The position numbers were made by a program, and so were the translations under genes. This document shows positions 1-19,481 of a DNA stretch of 35,836 nt, one piece after another (position 1 is the first letter of the stretch; every line of letters starts with the position of its first letter). Location of the stretch: the NCBI GenBank assembly GCA_030040895.1, contig JASHSJ010000022.1, positions 1 to 35,836 on the forward strand, written 5' to 3'. The stretch is from Microcaldota archaeon. GTDB lineage: Archaea; Micrarchaeota; Micrarchaeia; Micrarchaeales; Micrarchaeaceae. The notes below the pieces were generated by a model. It searched no databases. It saw nothing but the letters and a program-made list of their open reading frames with translations, and was not told the DNA's origin.

Positions 1-224
1 TACACGAATCACTATACGGAAAAGAGTACATAAAACTTGCAAAAGAAAGAGGGCACTCAACAACAGAAGAGGCGGCAAAGGTTGCAAAAGCAGCAGGGGC
101 AAAGAGGCTGGTTCTTTTCCACATGAGCGTGAGATACAACCAAACAGATAGGATATTAAACGATGCGAAAAAGATATTCAAGAATACGCAGATCGCAAAG
201 GACGGAGACAGGATAGCGCTTTAA
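1..224 (+). CDS. rnz: Ribonuclease Z, C-terminal part (truncated by window edge)
   Basis: The reading frame enters at base 3 and gives the last 73 residues, ending at TAA 222-224. Visible features are the GHST segment followed by an alanine-rich helix and the LFHMSVRY segment. In RNase Z these carry the late metal-binding histidine (in H-x-S-x-RY) and the conserved C-terminal core of the metallo-beta-lactamase fold. The enzyme cuts the 3' trailer from tRNA precursors just after the discriminator base. The stop codon directly abuts the first base of tRNA-Val, so the gene probably shares a transcript with one of its own substrates. Most of the protein, including the HxHxDH metal site, lies outside the window, so the assignment rests on the C-terminal signature only. 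Confidence 0.85.
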   Translation, partial: HESLYGKEYIKLAKERGHSTTEEAAKVAKAAGAKRLVLFHMSVRYNQTDRILNDAKKIFKNTQIAKDGDRIAL

Positions 225-296
225 GGGCTCTTAGTCGAGTGGTAAGACGTCACGTTGACAACGTGAAGATCTGGAGTCCGATTCTCCAAGAGCCCA
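225..296 (+). tRNA. tRNA-Val (anticodon GAC)
   Basis: A complete 72-base cloverleaf. The 7-bp acceptor stem pairs 225-231 with 289-295, and discriminator A is 296. The D stem is short (gtc/gac). The anticodon stem is tcacg/cgtga with loop ttGACaa, and the T stem is tggag/ctcca with a 7-base loop. CCA is not encoded and there is no intron. The 5' end touches the rnz stop codon and the 3' end lies 2 bases from the convergent metG stop. I see no clear TATA box 26 bases upstream, so co-transcription with rnz is likely. Confidence 0.95.
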
Positions 297-298
297 CT

Positions 299-1759
299 TT
301 ATTGGATAAACTTTTTAAAGAGTAGTTCGCCTTTCTTGACTTTGCTAGTCCATTCCCTGAAGGTGCAATCATCTATTGTCCCGACTTCTATCCCAAGTTG
401 GTTTGCTATTTTCGCACCTGTATTAGGCATGAAAGGGTATACTAATATGGAAATTATTCTAGACGCCTCAAGTAGATTATAAAGCACATTTGAGAGCTCT
501 CTACCTTGCAATCTCCATGGTTCTTTTTCACTAATATATTTATTTGTGGCTTTTATGAAAACAAAAATCTCGTTCAACGCATTAAAGGTATCTACGTCCT
601 CCATTAAAGAATCAATCTTTCCTATGTTGAGTTTTTGATCTAACTCCGCTTCTCCCTCTATCTTTCCTTCAAATCTTTCTGCCATAGTAAGAACCCTGTT
701 TATAAGGTTCCCAAGCTCAGCAACAAGCTCGTTATTAAGTCGTGATACTATAGCTTTTTCAGAAAAATCACCATCATCTCCTAATGGCATCTCTCTAATT
801 AGTGAGTATCTAAAAGCATCAGTAGAATATTTATCTACCATCAATATGGGATCCACAAAATTATCAAGGCTTTTACTCATCTTTTTACCATCAACAGTCC
901 ACCAACCATGAGCAAAAACCATTTTGGGCGGTTCTATTCCAGCTGAAAAAAGCATTGCAGGCCATATAACTGAATGAAACCAATTGATTTCCTTTCCTAT
1001 AAGGTGAATATCAGCAGGCCAATATTCTTTAAACTCTGGGCCATGCGGCCAATTTATTGCACTTATATAGTTGCATAAAGCATCTACCCAAACATAAACA
1101 TAATGACTGCCATCGAGCGGAAATGGAACAGCCCATTTTACTGTTGTTCTGGTTATACTCACATCCTTTAATCCATCATTCACTCTATTGATTATCTCCT
1201 TGGATCTAAAATTTGGAGAAAGAAACTTTTGATTTTTATTATAAAAATCAATTAATTTGTTCTGGTATTTACTAAGCTTGAAGAAATATGTTTCCTCCTT
1301 AACTTTTTTGACTTCTCTCCCACATGAAGGGCACTTTCCGTCTACCAGCTGTAATTCTGTCCAAAAAGATTCATCGGAAACACAGTACCAGCCTTCATAA
1401 TAACCCTTATATATATCACCATTTTCTGCAATTTTTTTTATTATTTCAGAAACAACTTTCACATGAGAACTATCACTAGTTCTTATAAAATAGTCATATT
1501 TTATGTTTAACTTTTCCCATATATATTTATACGCACCTACAATATTATCAACAAATTCTTTTGGCAATTTGCCTGCTTTTTTTGCTGATGTCTCTACTTT
1601 CTCGCCATGTTCATCTGTGCCAGTTAGAAAGAAAACGTCTTCGCCTTTAAGTCTATGCCATCTGGCTATAACGTCAGCAGCAATCGTAGTATATGCATGG
1701 CCTATATGAGGTTTATCATTAACATAATAAATTGGAGTTGTTATATAAAATTTATTCAT
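299..1759 (-). CDS. metG: Methionyl-tRNA synthetase
   Basis: A class I aminoacyl-tRNA synthetase that charges tRNA-Met in the cytoplasm. The 486 residues contain the HIGH motif at 18-21, the KMSKS motif at 293-297, and a connective-peptide region with Cys126 and the CPSC pair (143, 146), which resembles a single-knuckle zinc site. There is no C-terminal EMAP-like tRNA-binding domain, so this is a short form that looks bacterial rather than typical archaeal. The ATG at 1757-1759 follows the stop of the upstream endonuclease gene by one base, with AAGG as a ribosome site inside that gene's last codons, so the two are translationally coupled. Base composition is about 37 percent GC in a hand-counted line, clearly lower than most of the window, suggesting acquisition from elsewhere. 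Confidence 0.96.
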   Translation of the reverse strand: MNKFYITTPIYYVNDKPHIGHAYTTIAADVIARWHRLKGEDVFFLTGTDEHGEKVETSAKKAGKLPKEFVDNIVGAYKYIWEKLNIKYDYFIRTSDSSHVKVVSEIIKKIAENGDIYKGYYEGWYCVSDESFWTELQLVDGKCPSCGREVKKVKEETYFFKLSKYQNKLIDFYNKNQKFLSPNFRSKEIINRVNDGLKDVSITRTTVKWAVPFPLDGSHYVYVWVDALCNYISAINWPHGPEFKEYWPADIHLIGKEINWFHSVIWPAMLFSAGIEPPKMVFAHGWWTVDGKKMSKSLDNFVDPILMVDKYSTDAFRYSLIREMPLGDDGDFSEKAIVSRLNNELVAELGNLINRVLTMAERFEGKIEGEAELDQKLNIGKIDSLMEDVDTFNALNEIFVFIKATNKYISEKEPWRLQGRELSNVLYNLLEASRIISILVYPFMPNTGAKIANQLGIEVGTIDDCTFREWTSKVKKGELLFKKFIQ

Positions 1760-1760
1760 T

Positions 1761-2717
1761 TTATGACCTTCTATTAAACCATTGCTCCATTATAGTAATT
1801 TGTTTGGATCTATCTTCGTGTTTGATTTTACTTTTGATTAAATTAATAAACTTAAGTAATTCATATTTCCTATGTATAGCAAGAGTATAATAGTTTTGCC
1901 TAAATGGATAACCTGATACGCCAATTTTATTCTTTCTTTTATCATGATATAGATAGACATATTTGAAACCTAATTTTTTTATCCTATTTTGTATCACGCC
2001 GAGTAATTTATAATCGTAGTTTCCTATTGAAAATGCTGGCCTTCTACCTATGTAGAAGCTACCTTCAGCATCTATGAATCCAGCAAGAAACGATAGAAAA
2101 TATTCTTCATTTTTAATAGCCCAATTATATTCATTTTTCGTATTAAGCAAGAAAGAAAAAGAGTCATCTAGAAATGCTTCCATTTGTATTTTACCTAATG
2201 TATTTGCTGAACTAATCCACACTCTACCATACTTAGAAAATAATTTACTGAATAGCCTAACCTGTGCAATTTTTGTGCTGGCACAATCAACTTTTATTGT
2301 TTTACTTGATGATCCAACTTTCCTAACCCTCAAATCACCAATAGTAAACCCCTCTAAATACGCCTTTTCCTTAAGTTTACCTGAAAAGGAATTCCTGTCA
2401 TATTTTATATGAGCTGTTGCCATGTCTCTATTTATACCTAATTTTGAAATACGACGATAGAGTGTTGATCTACTGTATCCATAAATCTTCTCTATCTTCC
2501 ATGTAGACATCTTCTTAGAAATATAGAGTTTTTTAAGTTCAGTGTTCGAGATATTGATTTTGCTTATTCTATAATGTCTTATTTTAATTTTATTTCTTTT
2601 CAAATGATCTAATATCGTCTTTTTGGAGCACCTATATTCTCTCGATAGACGTAAAGATCCAATACCACTTAAGTATTTCTTTGTTATAGTATCAATTGGA
2701 AGATCAATGCTCTTCAT
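1761..2717 (-). CDS. Free-standing LAGLIDADG homing endonuclease with N-terminal HTH repeats
   Basis: The 318-residue protein has two LAGLIDADG motifs, YLEGFTIGDL (120-129, acidic Asp128) and FLAGFIDAEG (210-219, acidic Glu218), the arrangement of a monomeric two-motif DNA endonuclease. The first 95 residues contain two helix-turn-helix-like segments (about 11-47 and 61-95) that could extend DNA recognition. No intein splice signals or intron boundaries surround it, so it is a stand-alone gene. It lies directly upstream of metG on the same strand with a 1-base gap. GC content is about 33 percent in a hand-counted line, the lowest of any gene here. Both acidic motif residues are present, so the nuclease may be active. 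Its target site cannot be read from the sequence. Confidence 0.88.
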   Translation of the reverse strand: MKSIDLPIDTITKKYLSGIGSLRLSREYRCSKKTILDHLKRNKIKIRHYRISKINISNTELKKLYISKKMSTWKIEKIYGYSRSTLYRRISKLGINRDMATAHIKYDRNSFSGKLKEKAYLEGFTIGDLRVRKVGSSSKTIKVDCASTKIAQVRLFSKLFSKYGRVWISSANTLGKIQMEAFLDDSFSFLLNTKNEYNWAIKNEEYFLSFLAGFIDAEGSFYIGRRPAFSIGNYDYKLLGVIQNRIKKLGFKYVYLYHDKRKNKIGVSGYPFRQNYYTLAIHRKYELLKFINLIKSKIKHEDRSKQITIMEQWFNRRS

Positions 2718-2735
2718 GCAGGAATTTTAACATTC

Positions 2736-2743
2736 ATATTTAT
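2736..2743 (-). promoter_or_regulatory. Candidate TATA box of the endonuclease-metG operon
   Basis: On the minus strand an A/T-rich ATAAATAT element is centred about 23 bases before the endonuclease ATG. This would give a leaderless or nearly leaderless transcript. It is the best match in the 198-base gap 2718-2915, which otherwise contains no gene. Confidence 0.4.
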
Positions 2744-2873
2744 TATCCTTTTGGTGCATTAGACCATACAAATACTATACAATAAAAATCGGGTAAGCAA
2801 ACCAATAGCTAAAGATTATAAACCCTGCCCCGAAATCATATTTTATACACCTGTGCTGCTTGTTTCTAGCACC

Positions 2874-2882
2874 AAATATAAA
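2874..2882 (+). promoter_or_regulatory. Candidate TATA box of metK
   Basis: AAATATAAA centred near 2878 predicts a start near 2904. That leaves a leader of about 12 bases carrying GAAAGGT as a ribosome site before the ATG at 2916. A small inverted repeat (gtgct/agcac) lies upstream at about 2852-2871. I could not fold a recognisable SAM riboswitch. Confidence 0.45.
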
Positions 2883-2915
2883 GGTTATGTTCAGTCAATT
2901 TAGAAAGGTATTTTT

Positions 2916-4064
2916 ATGAAGAGATATTTCACATCTGAGAGTGTAACAGAGGGCCATCCTGACAAGGTATGCGACGGAATCAGCGATGCGATACTTGACG
3001 CATGCTTGGCACAGGATCCAGACAGCCACGTTGCTGTGGAAACGCTAGTAACTAGGGACTTCTGCTGCGTTGCAGGAGAGGTAACAACAAGAGGAAAGGT
3101 TGACTTTGAGAAGGTAGCAAGGCAGAAGATAAAAGAAATAGGGTACACTGACCCAAACCTGGGGTTCTCAGAAAAGTCAAAAATAATGGTTCTGATCCAT
3201 GAGCAAAGCCCAGACATAGCAAAAGGAGTTACAAAGGAGAAGGAAGACGAACAGGGAGCAGGAGACCAAGGGATCATGTTCGGATATGCTTCAAGGGAAA
3301 CGCCAGAGCTCATGCCATTGCCAATAATGCTAGCACACGCGCTGGCAAAGAGGATGGCAGAGGTAAGGAAGAAGGGCATAATACCAGAAGTCCTTCCAGA
3401 TGGTAAGAGCCAGATAACGTTTGAATATGATGACAAGAAACCAAAGAGAGTAGACACAGTTGTCATATCAACACATCACAAGGAATGCGATGTCCAGAAA
3501 CTAGAAGCAGATATAATAGAGAAGGTAATCATACCAGTACTTGGCAAGTGGTTTGACAAAGATACCAGGATATTCATAAACCCGGCAGGAAAGTGGACAT
3601 TGGGCGGGCCCGCGGCCGATACGGGGGTAACTGGCAGAAAGATAATAGTAGATTCATATGGAGGAAGGGGAAGGCACGGAGGAGGGGCTTTCTCAGGAAA
3701 GGACCCGTCAAAGGTAGACAGATCTGCTGCATACGCTGCAAGATACGTTGCAAAGAACATAGTGGCGGCTGATCTTGCTGACGAATGCGAAATCCAGATA
3801 TCGTACTGCATAGGCTATGCAGAGCCGTTGAGCATACACGTTGAGTGCTTCGGCACAAACAAGATATCTCAGGACAAGATAGAGCAGCTTGTCAGGAAGC
3901 ATTTCAAGCTCAGGCCTGCCCAGATAATAAGGGAGCTGGGACTCAAGGCCCCGATCTATCACATGACAAGCGCTTATGGACACTTCGGGAAGGATGGAGT
4001 TCCTTGGGAGAAGACCGACAAGGTTGCAGTGCTCAAAAGGGAAGTTGCCTCAGAAAGGATCTGA
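2916..4064 (+). CDS. metK: S-adenosylmethionine synthetase, bacterial type
   Basis: Makes S-adenosylmethionine from ATP and methionine for methylation reactions. The 382 residues show the bacterial MetK signatures: GHPDK (13-17), [12 protein letters not shown] (114-125, methionine/ATP site) and the glycine-rich [16 protein letters not shown] (from 255). This family differs from the unrelated-looking archaeal MAT (MTH1691 type) found in most archaea, so its presence here is notable. Length matches the bacterial family. The start is supported by GAAAGGT about 8 bases upstream. The gene is divergent from the metG operon, so two methionine-using enzymes of bacterial type sit side by side. Confidence 0.97.
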
Positions 4065-4074
4065 GTCATACTTC

Positions 4075-5070
4075 TCAGCATCCAACTATTTTCTGCTGAT
4101 ACAGGTCTACGGTCGCATATGACGGCTGTGACATGGAGTTCAGGTGCACGTTAAGATCCACTCCGCTGACGTTGAACGTTGCCGTATATCCTTGCAAGAC
4201 GGTCGTAGCATTTGTCAGGACTCCATTGTAAAAGACGTCTACCTGCGTGGTGTATGGATCATCGCCAAAGTTGAATCCGCGTATCTGCACCTTGAATGGC
4301 CCGTTTGTTATGTTCTGGCCTTCGTATCCCACTGCGCCTGTGGTTGGCTGCGCCAGCACGCTCAAGAAGGTCATCTTTGCCCACCTCTGGTATGCATAAA
4401 GTCCTGCGAATGTGCTGTTAACACTAACGCCAACAAGGCTGTTTCCGGACTCGAACGTTTGTGTACTTCCAGGCATTATGGCACTGGTGTTTGTAAGCAC
4501 GCCGTTATAGTAAAGATTTATCGCCACTAGTGATACACCGTTCGTGTTCGGCTGGCCAACATCCTCGAGCACCACAGTGTATGGCCCAGAAGTCAGGTTC
4601 TGGCCAAGATAAACGGTTTTCTGCGGGGTTTGTGGCTGGTATGACAGCACATTTATATTTGCCCACTCAGGATTACCGACACTGTTAGCGCTGAGCTCGT
4701 ATTCTGTGCTGTTGGTTGGGCTCTGGAAGATGTATGATTGCCCCGCCCCCAGGCTGGTAGTGCCTATAGGATAGGGCCAATACGGATATTTGGAAAGCTC
4801 CTGATTGTAAAATACGGTCAGTGATGCGTGCTGGTTTTGATTTACATTGTTGAACACTATGCTGAACGGGCCGTAATTAGCACTTGATGGATATTGTGCA
4901 CCGTAATCGCCTATCGTTATTGCATTGCCGAGTGGAGTATAAGTAAGAAAACAGTCTGGGCTTGGCGCGCTGCCGGGCGCCGGGCTTGCCATCAGGGCAG
5001 ACGCGTATCCCAATATTATCATCATGGAACTGAGGCCTATCAGAAGGTTCTTTGCATTCATCAAATTCAC
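4075..5070 (-). CDS. Secreted protein with three tandem beta-rich repeats
   Basis: No known family recognised. A hydrophobic signal segment (about 8-27) ends in an Ala/Ser/Pro-rich stretch. The mature part holds three repeats of roughly 90-95 residues. Each has a GPFxV/GPYxV strand, a V/L-x-V/L-x-YYN(G/Q) strand (YYNGVLTN and FYNGVLTN in repeats 2 and 3), a PGSTQTF-like turn and a closing hydrophobic strand, suggesting stacked Ig-like or beta-sandwich modules. The only two cysteines are Cys40, just after the signal, and Cys331, the last residue, so they bracket all repeats. Several N-x-S/T sequons are present. The start is GTG 5070, placed one base after the start predicted from the TATA box at 5094-5101; ATG 5061 is the alternative. 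A cell-surface role is inference. Confidence 0.75.
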   Translation of the reverse strand: MNLMNAKNLLIGLSSMMIILGYASALMASPAPGSAPSPDCFLTYTPLGNAITIGDYGAQYPSSANYGPFSIVFNNVNQNQHASLTVFYNQELSKYPYWPYPIGTTSLGAGQSYIFQSPTNSTEYELSANSVGNPEWANINVLSYQPQTPQKTVYLGQNLTSGPYTVVLEDVGQPNTNGVSLVAINLYYNGVLTNTSAIMPGSTQTFESGNSLVGVSVNSTFAGLYAYQRWAKMTFLSVLAQPTTGAVGYEGQNITNGPFKVQIRGFNFGDDPYTTQVDVFYNGVLTNATTVLQGYTATFNVSGVDLNVHLNSMSQPSYATVDLYQQKIVGC

Positions 5071-7443: not shown

Positions 7444-8851
7444 GCAACTTCCACTTTTTCTCTACTTCATCAACTAGTTCCTTTGGAAGCGATATTGTAT
7501 CAGGCCACTCTCTGGTATATCCTTCTTCCTTTGTCTTCTTCGTTGCATCAATGAGCATCTTTGAGCCGAACGCTGGTATATTCGTTGTGTGATCAAGCGA
7601 GTCCGCCGTCGCTCCAGTTATTATCTGGACATCACGTTGCGGCTCTATCCTTGTTGCCAGCGCCCAGGTGACCTGCGACATGTCCCTTATGTCTATGTCA
7701 TCGTCAAATACCACTATTATCTTCAGGAATGAGAGCTGGCCCATGCCAAGAACGGAGAACATTACTTTCTTTGCCTCGCCCGGAAATCTTTTCTTTATCG
7801 AAACAAAGCACATGTTGGTGAAGATTCCTTCTGCCGGCGCGTATATGTCAACTATTGCAGGATTCATCGACTTTATGACTGGCTTGAGGAGATCTCCAAG
7901 GAATTCTATTACGGTGGCGTCTTCATGCCACGGATGCCCCACCACACTTGCCGGGTATATCGGATTCTTTTTCGCATAGATTGAATCTATATGGAATACA
8001 GGATATTCTTCAGCGGTTCCATAATACCCCGTATGATCTCCGAACGGACCTTCCAGCCTCCTGTCGTCAGGATCGACGTGGCCGTTGATTATTATCTCGC
8101 TGTTTGCAGGCACTGCTGGATATTCGCCGTTCTTCATCATGACAGTTTGTTTTTCCCTCAGCATTCCAGCAAACGCAAATTCGTTTATTCCGTGGGGCAG
8201 CGGAGTTATAGCCGCGATCATGCTGTACGGATCGGTCCCGAGCGAAACGGCGGCGTTCAGGCGCTCGCCCTTTTCGTGGGCCTCGCTTGCGTGGATTGCT
8301 CCGCCCTTCTGCGCCTGCCAGTGCATGCCGGTGGTATGGTTGTCAAATACTTGCATACGGTATATTCCAGTGTTGTAGCTCTTGTCCCTGGGGCTTTGCG
8401 TTATGACCAATGGAAGGGTTATGAACTTGCCAGCATCCTTCGGCCATGACTTGAGTATAGGAAGCTCATCCAGGCTGTCAAGTTTTCTGTACTTGTCAAG
8501 ACCGGATTCAATGTACTTTGGCTTCGAATCGAGCAGCATCTTCCCCGCCTTTACTATTGAAAGGCCCTTGCCTGATGCCATCATGCTGCTGAGCTCTGAT
8601 AGCAGCTCTATTGCATAGCTGTTCGTGAACAACTCGCTCAGCGTGTTGCGTGAGCCAAAAAGATTTGTTACAACTGGTATATCATAATCCTCTACTTTAT
8701 TGAACAACAATGTTTTTGCATCTCTTTTGCGCTCCCTGCTCGCAGCATCGGTAAACGCGGTAACTTCCAGCTCCGCGCTGACCCTGGCATTTATTTCCGC
8801 TAGCCTTCCTTTTGCCTTTAGATACTTCACGTATTCCTGCAGATCATTCAT
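7433..8851 (-). CDS. ubiD: UbiD-family decarboxylase
   Basis: 472 residues covering a full UbiD protein. Enzymes of the family use prenylated FMN to remove or add CO2 on unsaturated acids. Visible signatures are NTGIYRMQVFDNHTTGMHW (about 160-180), a PLPHGINEFAFAG segment, EGPFGDHTGYY, the DDDIDIRD stretch and GSKMLIDAT near the end. In archaea UbiD relatives act either in quinone synthesis or on anhydromevalonate phosphate in the modified mevalonate route. The translational overlap with ubiA favours a prenylated-ring or quinone-like pathway, but the sequence does not decide. No UbiX (the prenyl-FMN maker) is in the window. The AMMECR1-like gene ends 8 bases upstream. Confidence 0.93.
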   Translation of the reverse strand: MNDLQEYVKYLKAKGRLAEINARVSAELEVTAFTDAASRERKRDAKTLLFNKVEDYDIPVVTNLFGSRNTLSELFTNSYAIELLSELSSMMASGKGLSIVKAGKMLLDSKPKYIESGLDKYRKLDSLDELPILKSWPKDAGKFITLPLVITQSPRDKSYNTGIYRMQVFDNHTTGMHWQAQKGGAIHASEAHEKGERLNAAVSLGTDPYSMIAAITPLPHGINEFAFAGMLREKQTVMMKNGEYPAVPANSEIIINGHVDPDDRRLEGPFGDHTGYYGTAEEYPVFHIDSIYAKKNPIYPASVVGHPWHEDATVIEFLGDLLKPVIKSMNPAIVDIYAPAEGIFTNMCFVSIKKRFPGEAKKVMFSVLGMGQLSFLKIIVVFDDDIDIRDMSQVTWALATRIEPQRDVQIITGATADSLDHTTNIPAFGSKMLIDATKKTKEEGYTREWPDTISLPKELVDEVEKKWKLLGK

Positions 8852-14044: not shown

Positions 14045-15871
14045 ATGGCAGATGAACAAAGATGTGCAGTATATCTTGATGGAAGAGTCATAGGATATGT
14101 AAAGGATGGCGCAGCCTTTGCGGAAGAGGTAAGGACAAACAGGAGGACCGGAGTAGTCTCAGGAGAAATCAATGTCGCTTACATAAAGGGGCTCAATGAG
14201 GTCCACATAAACGCAGACAGAGGAAGAGTAAGAAAGCCATACATAGTAGTGGAGAAGGGACAAAGTAAGATGACAGACGAGCTCAAGGAAAAGCTCAAGA
14301 ACAAGGAAATAGACTATAATTATTTAGTAAGGAGGGGCATAATCGAATACCTTGATGCAGAGGAAGAGGAAGAAATAAGGGCGGCAGTAGATACAAAATC
14401 AATAAACAGGCACACAACACATCTTGAGATAGACCCGGCCGCGATGTTCGGGCTAACATTCAGCACAAGCGTATTCCCAGAATACAACCAGGTAGGAAGA
14501 CACCCGGTATCAGCTAACTTCATAAAACAAAGTCAGGGTCTATACGCAGTCAATTTCAACAACAGATACGATGCAAGAGCATATCTTTTGTATTATCCGC
14601 AACTTCCAATAGTGAACAGCACAACATACAGGACCCTTAACATAAACAGGCACCCAAGCGGACAGAACTTCGTGATCGCACTGGCAACATATTATGGATA
14701 CAACATGAAGGACGGATTCGTGTTGAACAGAGGCGCAATTGACAGAGGACTGGGAAGGAGCCTTTTCTACAGAACGTATTCAGATGAAGAAAGAAGATAT
14801 CCAGGAGGACAGCAGGATCATTTCAAGATACCGGCAGCAACAACTGAAGGATATTTGGGAGAGCACGCTTACTCAAAGCTCAGCGAAGACGGAATAATAG
14901 AGCAGGAACTGCCAGTGGCAGAAGGAGATGTCCTTATCGGGAAGGTAAGCCCGCCAAGATTTCTTGAGGAGCAGACAAGCTTTGGAATAGGAGAGGAAAG
15001 GAACAGGGACAATTCAGTAACACTTAGATCAGGAGAAGAGGGAATAGTGGACAGCGTAATGCTCAGCGAAACAACTGGGGCAACAAAGACAGTAAAGGTC
15101 AGAGTCAGGAACATAAAGATCCCAGAAATCGGAGACAAGTTCGCAAGCAGGCACGGGCAGAAGGGAGTAGCTGCGCTGATTGTCGACGAGAAGGACATGC
15201 CATTCACAAAGGATGGAATAAGGCCTGACATTCTACTTGATCCGCTGGCCTTCCCAAGCAGAATGACTCTGGGACAGATGCTAGAGACACTTGCAGGAAA
15301 GGCAGGATCACTTGGAGGAAAGTTCTTCGATGGAACTCCATTCTCAGGAGAAGGAAGGGCAAGAGTAGATGAATATGGAAAGATCTTGGAAGGATTCGGC
15401 TTCGACAAGTTCGGAGACGAAGTTCTTTATGATGGAAGAACCGGAAAGAAGTTCGAGGCAAGAGTCTTCACAGGAATTGTATATTTCAACAGATTGCTTC
15501 ACATGGTAAGCACAAAGTTGCAGGTCAGGAGCAGAGGACCTGTGCAAATACTCACCCACCAGCCAACAGAAGGAAAGCCAAGGAAAGGTGGTCTAAGATT
15601 CGGAGAAATGGAACGTGATGCGCTTGTTGGATACGGAGCCAGCCTGCTGATAAAGGACCGCATGCTTGATCAGAGCGACAAAGCCGACGTTTGGGTCTGC
15701 AGAGAATGCGGAGACATCGGATACTATGATTATGTAAAGAACGTTGCAGTATGTCCTGTTGACCCAGGAGCTACGCTTGAAAAAGTAGAAATCAGCTATG
15801 CATTCAAACTGTTGCTGGACGAAATAAAGTCTCTGCACATCCTCCCAAGGATAAAGATGAAGAGCGAGTGA
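14045..15871 (+). CDS. rpoB1: DNA-directed RNA polymerase subunit B' (C-terminal half of B)
   Basis: 608 residues with the catalytic-side half of B: the region around NINRHPSGQNFVIA, the GDKFASRHGQKGV motif, and the C-terminal HQPTEGKPRKGGLRFGEMER block that binds nascent RNA and the clamp. The zinc ribbon near the end has Cys552, Cys555 and Cys570, but the expected fourth Cys is Asp573 (CPVD instead of CPVC). Starts 4 bases after rpoB2. Its stop overlaps a GTG of the rpoA' frame. Confidence 0.97.
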   Translation: MADEQRCAVYLDGRVIGYVKDGAAFAEEVRTNRRTGVVSGEINVAYIKGLNEVHINADRGRVRKPYIVVEKGQSKMTDELKEKLKNKEIDYNYLVRRGIIEYLDAEEEEEIRAAVDTKSINRHTTHLEIDPAAMFGLTFSTSVFPEYNQVGRHPVSANFIKQSQGLYAVNFNNRYDARAYLLYYPQLPIVNSTTYRTLNINRHPSGQNFVIALATYYGYNMKDGFVLNRGAIDRGLGRSLFYRTYSDEERRYPGGQQDHFKIPAATTEGYLGEHAYSKLSEDGIIEQELPVAEGDVLIGKVSPPRFLEEQTSFGIGEERNRDNSVTLRSGEEGIVDSVMLSETTGATKTVKVRVRNIKIPEIGDKFASRHGQKGVAALIVDEKDMPFTKDGIRPDILLDPLAFPSRMTLGQMLETLAGKAGSLGGKFFDGTPFSGEGRARVDEYGKILEGFGFDKFGDEVLYDGRTGKKFEARVFTGIVYFNRLLHMVSTKLQVRSRGPVQILTHQPTEGKPRKGGLRFGEMERDALVGYGASLLIKDRMLDQSDKADVWVCRECGDIGYYDYVKNVAVCPVDPGATLEKVEISYAFKLLLDEIKSLHILPRIKMKSE

Positions 15872-15876
15872 TATTC

Positions 15877-19481
<3,605 letters not shown>

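Follow-up and report, generated by a model that had tools for sequence, protein, structure and literature searches.

A free-standing LAGLIDADG homing endonuclease gene upstream of the sole methionyl-tRNA synthetase gene of a Micrarchaeota archaeon

Results

Gene content and composition of the locus

The window, a stretch of 35,836 nucleotides from an archaeal bin of the Micrarchaeota (G000; 764 kb; mean GC, 46.3%), carries near its left end two intact open reading frames on the reverse strand. One is metG (positions 299 to 1759), which encodes a bacterial-type methionyl-tRNA synthetase (MetRS) of 486 residues and is present in a single copy, no second MetG having been found in the genome. Directly upstream lies a free-standing homing endonuclease gene (HEG; 1761 to 2717) encoding a 318-residue LAGLIDADG protein. 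An earlier note on this DNA had described a two-motif LAGLIDADG gene ending one base before the metG start, and both motifs and the spacing were recovered: the HEG stop codon (TAA) occupies positions 1761 to 1763, and the metG ATG occupies positions 1757 to 1759. A TATA-like sequence 5' of the HEG (2735 to 2744, reverse strand), read from the sequence, is a possible promoter of the HEG-metG operon. At the other end, 2 bp separate the metG stop codon from the end of a tRNA-Val(GAC) gene (225 to 296, forward strand; ARAGORN; Rfam tRNA, 66.6 bits). The right-hand neighbor is metK (2916 to 4064, forward strand).

The Pfam LAGLIDADG_3 match of the HEG product was barely past the cutoff (5e-05), NCBIfam returned no match, and PHROGs matches, to HNH-type and other proteins, were confined to the N-terminal part. 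The first LAGLIDADG motif is degenerate (YLEGFTIGD, from residue 120; 2331 to 2360, reverse strand) and the second is LAGFIDAEG (from residue 211; 2061 to 2087, reverse strand); each retains its acidic residue, and the first is conserved as YLLGLSQAD in a family member from genome G299. The AlphaFold model is of modest confidence (mean pLDDT, only 62.7); in Foldseek searches, this predicted structure showed the two-repeat alpha-beta LAGLIDADG fold and matched I-DmoI (E value, 4.4e-07; TM score by target length, 0.60) and also PI-PfuI. Residues 18 to 105 (2403 to 2666, reverse strand) form helix-turn-helix-like repeats, with weak matches in Pfam and PHROGs and helices in the model, and are probably a DNA-binding region. 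The gene has its own start and stop codons between metG and metK. An Rfam search of positions 1 to 4100 revealed no intron around it, and an intron-borne HEG was rejected. On the basis of its sequence and predicted structure, we assign the HEG product as a LAGLIDADG homing endonuclease that is neither intron nor intein borne.

The bacterial type of MetG is clear from NCBIfam, where it exceeded the cutoff of PRK12267 (1.1e-195; 651.8 bits; cutoff, 598) and scored above the other MetRS models, with PRK00133 at 342.7 bits, below its cutoff of 587. MetG is thus not the archaeal-type enzyme, whose presence would have told against acquisition. However, its closest sampled relatives (G233, G011, and G221; 72 to 73% identity) come from within the same genus, family, and order. 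The type was thus already circulating in the Micrarchaeota, and MetG is no exotic arrival. The exact position of the window MetG in the tree was weakly supported. As a separate observation, metG of four relatives (L050 in G006, L051 in G007, L150 in G037, and L204 in G221) has no in-frame ATG, GTG, or TTG near the expected start, where the codons are CTG, ATA, and GTA; ATG is the start codon of the HEG-coupled metG in G000 and G180.

HEG and metG form an AT-rich island (30.0% and 34.8% GC, respectively). Together they have a GC content of 32.9%, the lowest of 1,448 overlapping 2.4-kb windows (523 of 764 kb, excluding masked contigs), and a GC3 of 26 to 28% against a gene mean of 51%. The genome mean of 46% shows that the AT richness is local. 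Flanking genes have about 46 to 50% GC, and at metK, the island edge, composition returns to a host-like 47.9%, a shift that the earlier note had also described. Its figure of over 55% for the AAA and rpoB genes was too high; these genes have about 47 to 51% GC, and the contrast is about 13 points rather than 20. The amino acid composition of MetG resembles that of enzymes from genomes with about 30% GC, which suggests that metG was probably long resident in an AT-rich relative.

The tRNA-Val integration site

Positions 282 to 331 of the window overlap exactly (50 bp) with the start of contig C15 (L096) of the same genome. The first 16 bp (282 to 297) are the att repeat of an integrative element on C15. 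There, an identical tRNA-Val precedes 2.9 kb of sequence that contains AT-rich open reading frames and a tyrosine integrase gene (PF00589); the element (L096, 35 to 3012) is bounded by tRNA-Val on one side and by a 16-bp repeat of the 3' end of this tRNA on the other, and thus has the repeats and integrase of a tRNA-integrated element. Past the 16-bp repeat, C15 continues into the end of metG. Thus, metG lies at an integration site, and two left contexts were assembled, with and without the element. No second att repeat was found at the right end of metG-HEG, which leaves integrase-mediated insertion of the pair unsupported.

The presence of two left contexts could also mean that, through misassembly or misbinning, the first 2.8 kb of the contig came from a different organism, one that is AT rich. 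The island is indeed close to the contig start, and the rnz fragment at positions 3 to 221 is only 56% identical to the rnz of C15. We nevertheless regard an artifact as very improbable: C15, which carries host-like genes, extends into metG without a mismatch, the tRNA-Val genes are identical, the rnz fragment has a host-like GC content (44%), and the same HEG-metG pairing occurs independently in G007 and G180 (see below). The two diverged rnz genes (window, 3 to 221; L096, 3013 to 3918) each precede tRNA-Val(GAC), and G009 (L209 and L210) likewise has two diverged rnz genes, each before tRNA-Val(GAC).

Among the relatives compared, no HEG-free empty site matching the window locus could be fixed. 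The tRNA-Val-metK region of G009 was considered as an empty counterpart but gives only a hint, its tRNA being the TAC isoacceptor and the intergenic similarity unconvincing. Bacterial-type metK is patchy too (6 of 37 genomes). In G039, metK (G039:C1:66673-69171) is split within a single 842-residue frame with a LAGLIDADG_3 match and so probably contains an intein.

The ancestral metG slot

In both families compared, metG usually lies divergent to mcm and often, in family f1, is oriented with its 3' end toward a tRNA-binding domain gene (PF01588). MetG in this slot varies between the bacterial and the archaeal type from genome to genome, even among members of the window's genus; bacterial-type MetG (E value, ≤1e-90) was found in 111 of 301 genomes of the phylum, with a patchy distribution. 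On contig C13 of the window genome, only about 150 bp separate the tRNA-binding gene from mcm, and metG is absent. The sequence GGTGCACTTCCGCAT, found before metG in relatives, is still present in the C13 slot, which indicates that metG was lost there; the HEG-metG pair lies elsewhere. In the metG-mcm intergenic regions of the genus, we also observed a conserved GATGCGGAAGTGCACCAGC-like sequence before metG (L081, about 1334 to 1350), and several insertions, as well as the metG loss, have an edge at this sequence.

Recurrence of the endonuclease beside metG

Clear members of the HEG family were found in only 4 of the 301 genomes: G000 (the window), G007, G180, and G299. Three of them, in genomes spanning two families, are directly upstream of metG; the G299 copy is located elsewhere. 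Taking the window as given, the probability that two of the remaining three lie at metG at random is about 4e-6. The adjacent MetG is bacterial type in G000 and archaeal type in G007 and G180, the two types being nonorthologous. For AT shift relative to flanks, the three HEG-linked metG genes rank 1, 2, and 4 of 77 (P = 3e-5).

When the HEG alignment was used for a genome-wide scan, the only matches were in two Micrarchaeota, both already identified. A viral collection scanned with the HEG, its alignment, and MetG yielded no relatives, and no virus carrier is therefore known. A full-text search of open-licence literature yielded no paper on a metG-linked homing endonuclease or on free-standing HEGs of Micrarchaeota; its sole Micrarchaeota match was a paper describing rRNA group I introns.

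The comparison of close relatives proposed in the earlier note gave an insertion in G180. Its HEG is split over two contigs: the C-terminal part overlaps metG by 8 bp, and the N-terminal part lies beside speD. In the HEG-free sister genome G037, speD and metG are adjacent. HEG was thus inserted between speD and metG in G180, displacing the sequence before metG, and is present in one and absent from the other of two close relatives at the same site. G180 and G037 share 83% identity in metG, comparable to that in the neighboring speD; the G180 metG looks native, with HEG seated on it. HEG would therefore be able to insert without a metG swap. One could accordingly suppose that HEG merely homes to the metG start, with metG native throughout and the AT shift arising in place; the GC pattern of G180, mostly common to G037, fits this as well. 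As a general account it is unlikely, given that metG was replaced in G007 and that the window metG is off the ancestral slot and has the amino acid bias of AT-rich genomes.

A replaced tract in G007

The HEG of G007 is a remnant, with an open frame of 104 residues that represents the C-terminal part and ends at the metG start. MCM places G007 and G009 as sisters, and a 4.3-kb comparison of their rnz loci gave 87% identity; metG, in contrast, shows about 70% identity between the two, and the HEG remnant has no match. We compared the two metG loci in 30-base identity steps. Identity is 80 to 100% up to the end of the tRNA-binding gene and over the final 50 bp or so of metG, falls to about 50 to 77% inside metG (values over the HEG remnant are not meaningful), and is back to 77 to 100% from position 7820. 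The tract edges are sharp and, at about 5940 and 7822, lie in the last metG codons and just outside HEG. In the MetG tree, G009 groups with G003 rather than with G007, and metG is 11 GC points below its flanks in G007 against 3 in G009. A GC gradient of the kind left by a conversion tract is visible in G007; in G180, it is mostly common to the HEG-free sister. For G007, the most parsimonious reading of these data is that a single recombination event carried metG and HEG in together.

The G007 remnant also bears on whether the protein might be a former endonuclease that now controls metG expression from within the operon. The tight operon and the helix-turn-helix-like N terminus would suit such a regulator. 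Both predicted catalytic acids are retained, however, the decayed G007 copy indicates that loss is tolerated, and HEG is missing from almost all relatives; we consider domestication the least probable of the explanations.

Discussion

Direct observations are the arrangement of the two genes as an operon, the recurrence of this arrangement in three genomes, the replaced tract in G007, and the emptied slot in the window genome; cotransfer of HEG and metG is well supported. The joint acquisition suggested in the earlier note is borne out by the common foreign composition of the two genes, the amino acid bias of MetG, the empty old slot, and the G007 tract with metG and a HEG remnant.

Several features of the pair are familiar from other free-standing homing endonucleases. 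In phage T4, the seg/mob endonucleases (SegF at gene 56 and SegG at gene 32) act in intronless homing and marker exclusion, and with SegF and SegG the neighboring gene is coconverted (PMC2988022). Like the window HEG, they lie outside introns and inteins and adjoin a conserved gene, and they often overlap this neighbor, displacing its transcription start (PMC2988022). The T4 enzymes, however, are of the GIY-YIG or HNH type, whereas the window HEG is a LAGLIDADG gene that lies next to an essential synthetase gene on the chromosome of an archaeon, with cleavage and homing predicted. In Haloferax, free-standing LAGLIDADG endonucleases occur in glycosylation islands, for which transfer by gene conversion has been proposed (PMC5867893). 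These too are archaeal, chromosomal, and near a variable locus, but they carry pfam03161, are located in accessory islands, and are not reported there to form an operon with an essential gene (PMC5867893). I-DmoI and PI-PfuI share the two-repeat fold; they reside in an rRNA intron and an intein, whereas the window HEG has no splicing element and an additional helix-turn-helix-like N terminus.

A second pairing was found on contig C14 of the window genome (L095), where an AT-rich LAGLIDADG_3 HEG (15401 to 16303, forward strand) overlaps the rtcB start (16282) by 22 bp. G239 (L249) has the same pair, the two HEGs being 67% identical. Unlike the metG HEG, the rtcB HEG has a strong LAGLIDADG_3 score, and it was not returned by the metG HEG search of the genome. 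Other relatives also carry free-standing HEGs at gene starts (L265 in G039, L264 in G019, L262 in G190, L259, L267, L257, L260, L256, and L261). In this set, with gene names assigned by eye, HEGs overlap a dnaK-like start by 20 bp, precede cysN/cysD-like genes by 13 to 21 bp, and are oriented divergently to a cca-like gene (four genomes) or a helicase-like gene (two genomes).

We propose that the free-standing HEG travels with, and displaces, an essential synthetase gene by intronless homing of the kind known for T4 seg/mob, a reading to which we give a probability of about 0.5. The endonuclease would cut a putative metG-linked site in HEG-free genomes, and repair of the break from HEG-bearing donor DNA would copy both HEG and the donor metG next to it, swapping the resident metG. 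The window pair would have come from an AT-rich relative and settled next to the tRNA-Val integration site rather than at the old locus, after which the old metG would have been deleted. Since metG is probably read from the HEG transcript, a clean loss of HEG would be costly, which may have helped the HEG to persist. That cleavage by HEG causes the replacement of metG is an inference, and several observations count against it: most metG type changes in the phylum are now without a HEG, which is the main weakness of the homing reading; the position of the window pair off the ancestral locus is unexplained by simple homing; and the G180 case has a native-looking metG and a HEG split over two contigs. 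Decay of HEGs is expected after fixation, and the G007 remnant appears to be an example of it, although it is no proof of homing-driven swaps.

These same observations leave some room for a passive HEG, one that rides along while metG is exchanged by ordinary recombination or is brought to tRNA-Val by an integrative element. Types of metG swap in place in many genomes without HEG, and the new metG site adjoins a tRNA-Val used by a tyrosine integrase element. Yet the HEG family, although rare, adjoins metG in three of its four occurrences, with MetG of two types, and metG-HEG has no second att repeat, which speaks against the integrative element; we hold this explanation possible but rather doubtful. 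More speculative than cleavage-driven exchange at metG is its extension, in which archaeal free-standing HEGs drive repeated nonorthologous replacement of MetRS and, judging from the parallel layout, perhaps of rtcB and other conserved genes, across the Micrarchaeota as selfish cassettes. If this tentative proposal is true, homing would be a cause of essential-gene displacement.

Horizontal transfer and replacement of aminoacyl-tRNA synthetase genes are well known, usually with no settled cause. Placed in an operon with a synthetase gene, a selfish endonuclease would supply a driver for such replacement. Intronless homing has so far been mainly a phage phenomenon; the present case would show it at an essential chromosomal gene in archaea and would offer a possible route by which a parasitic gene swaps a core gene of its host in an archaeon with a tiny genome.
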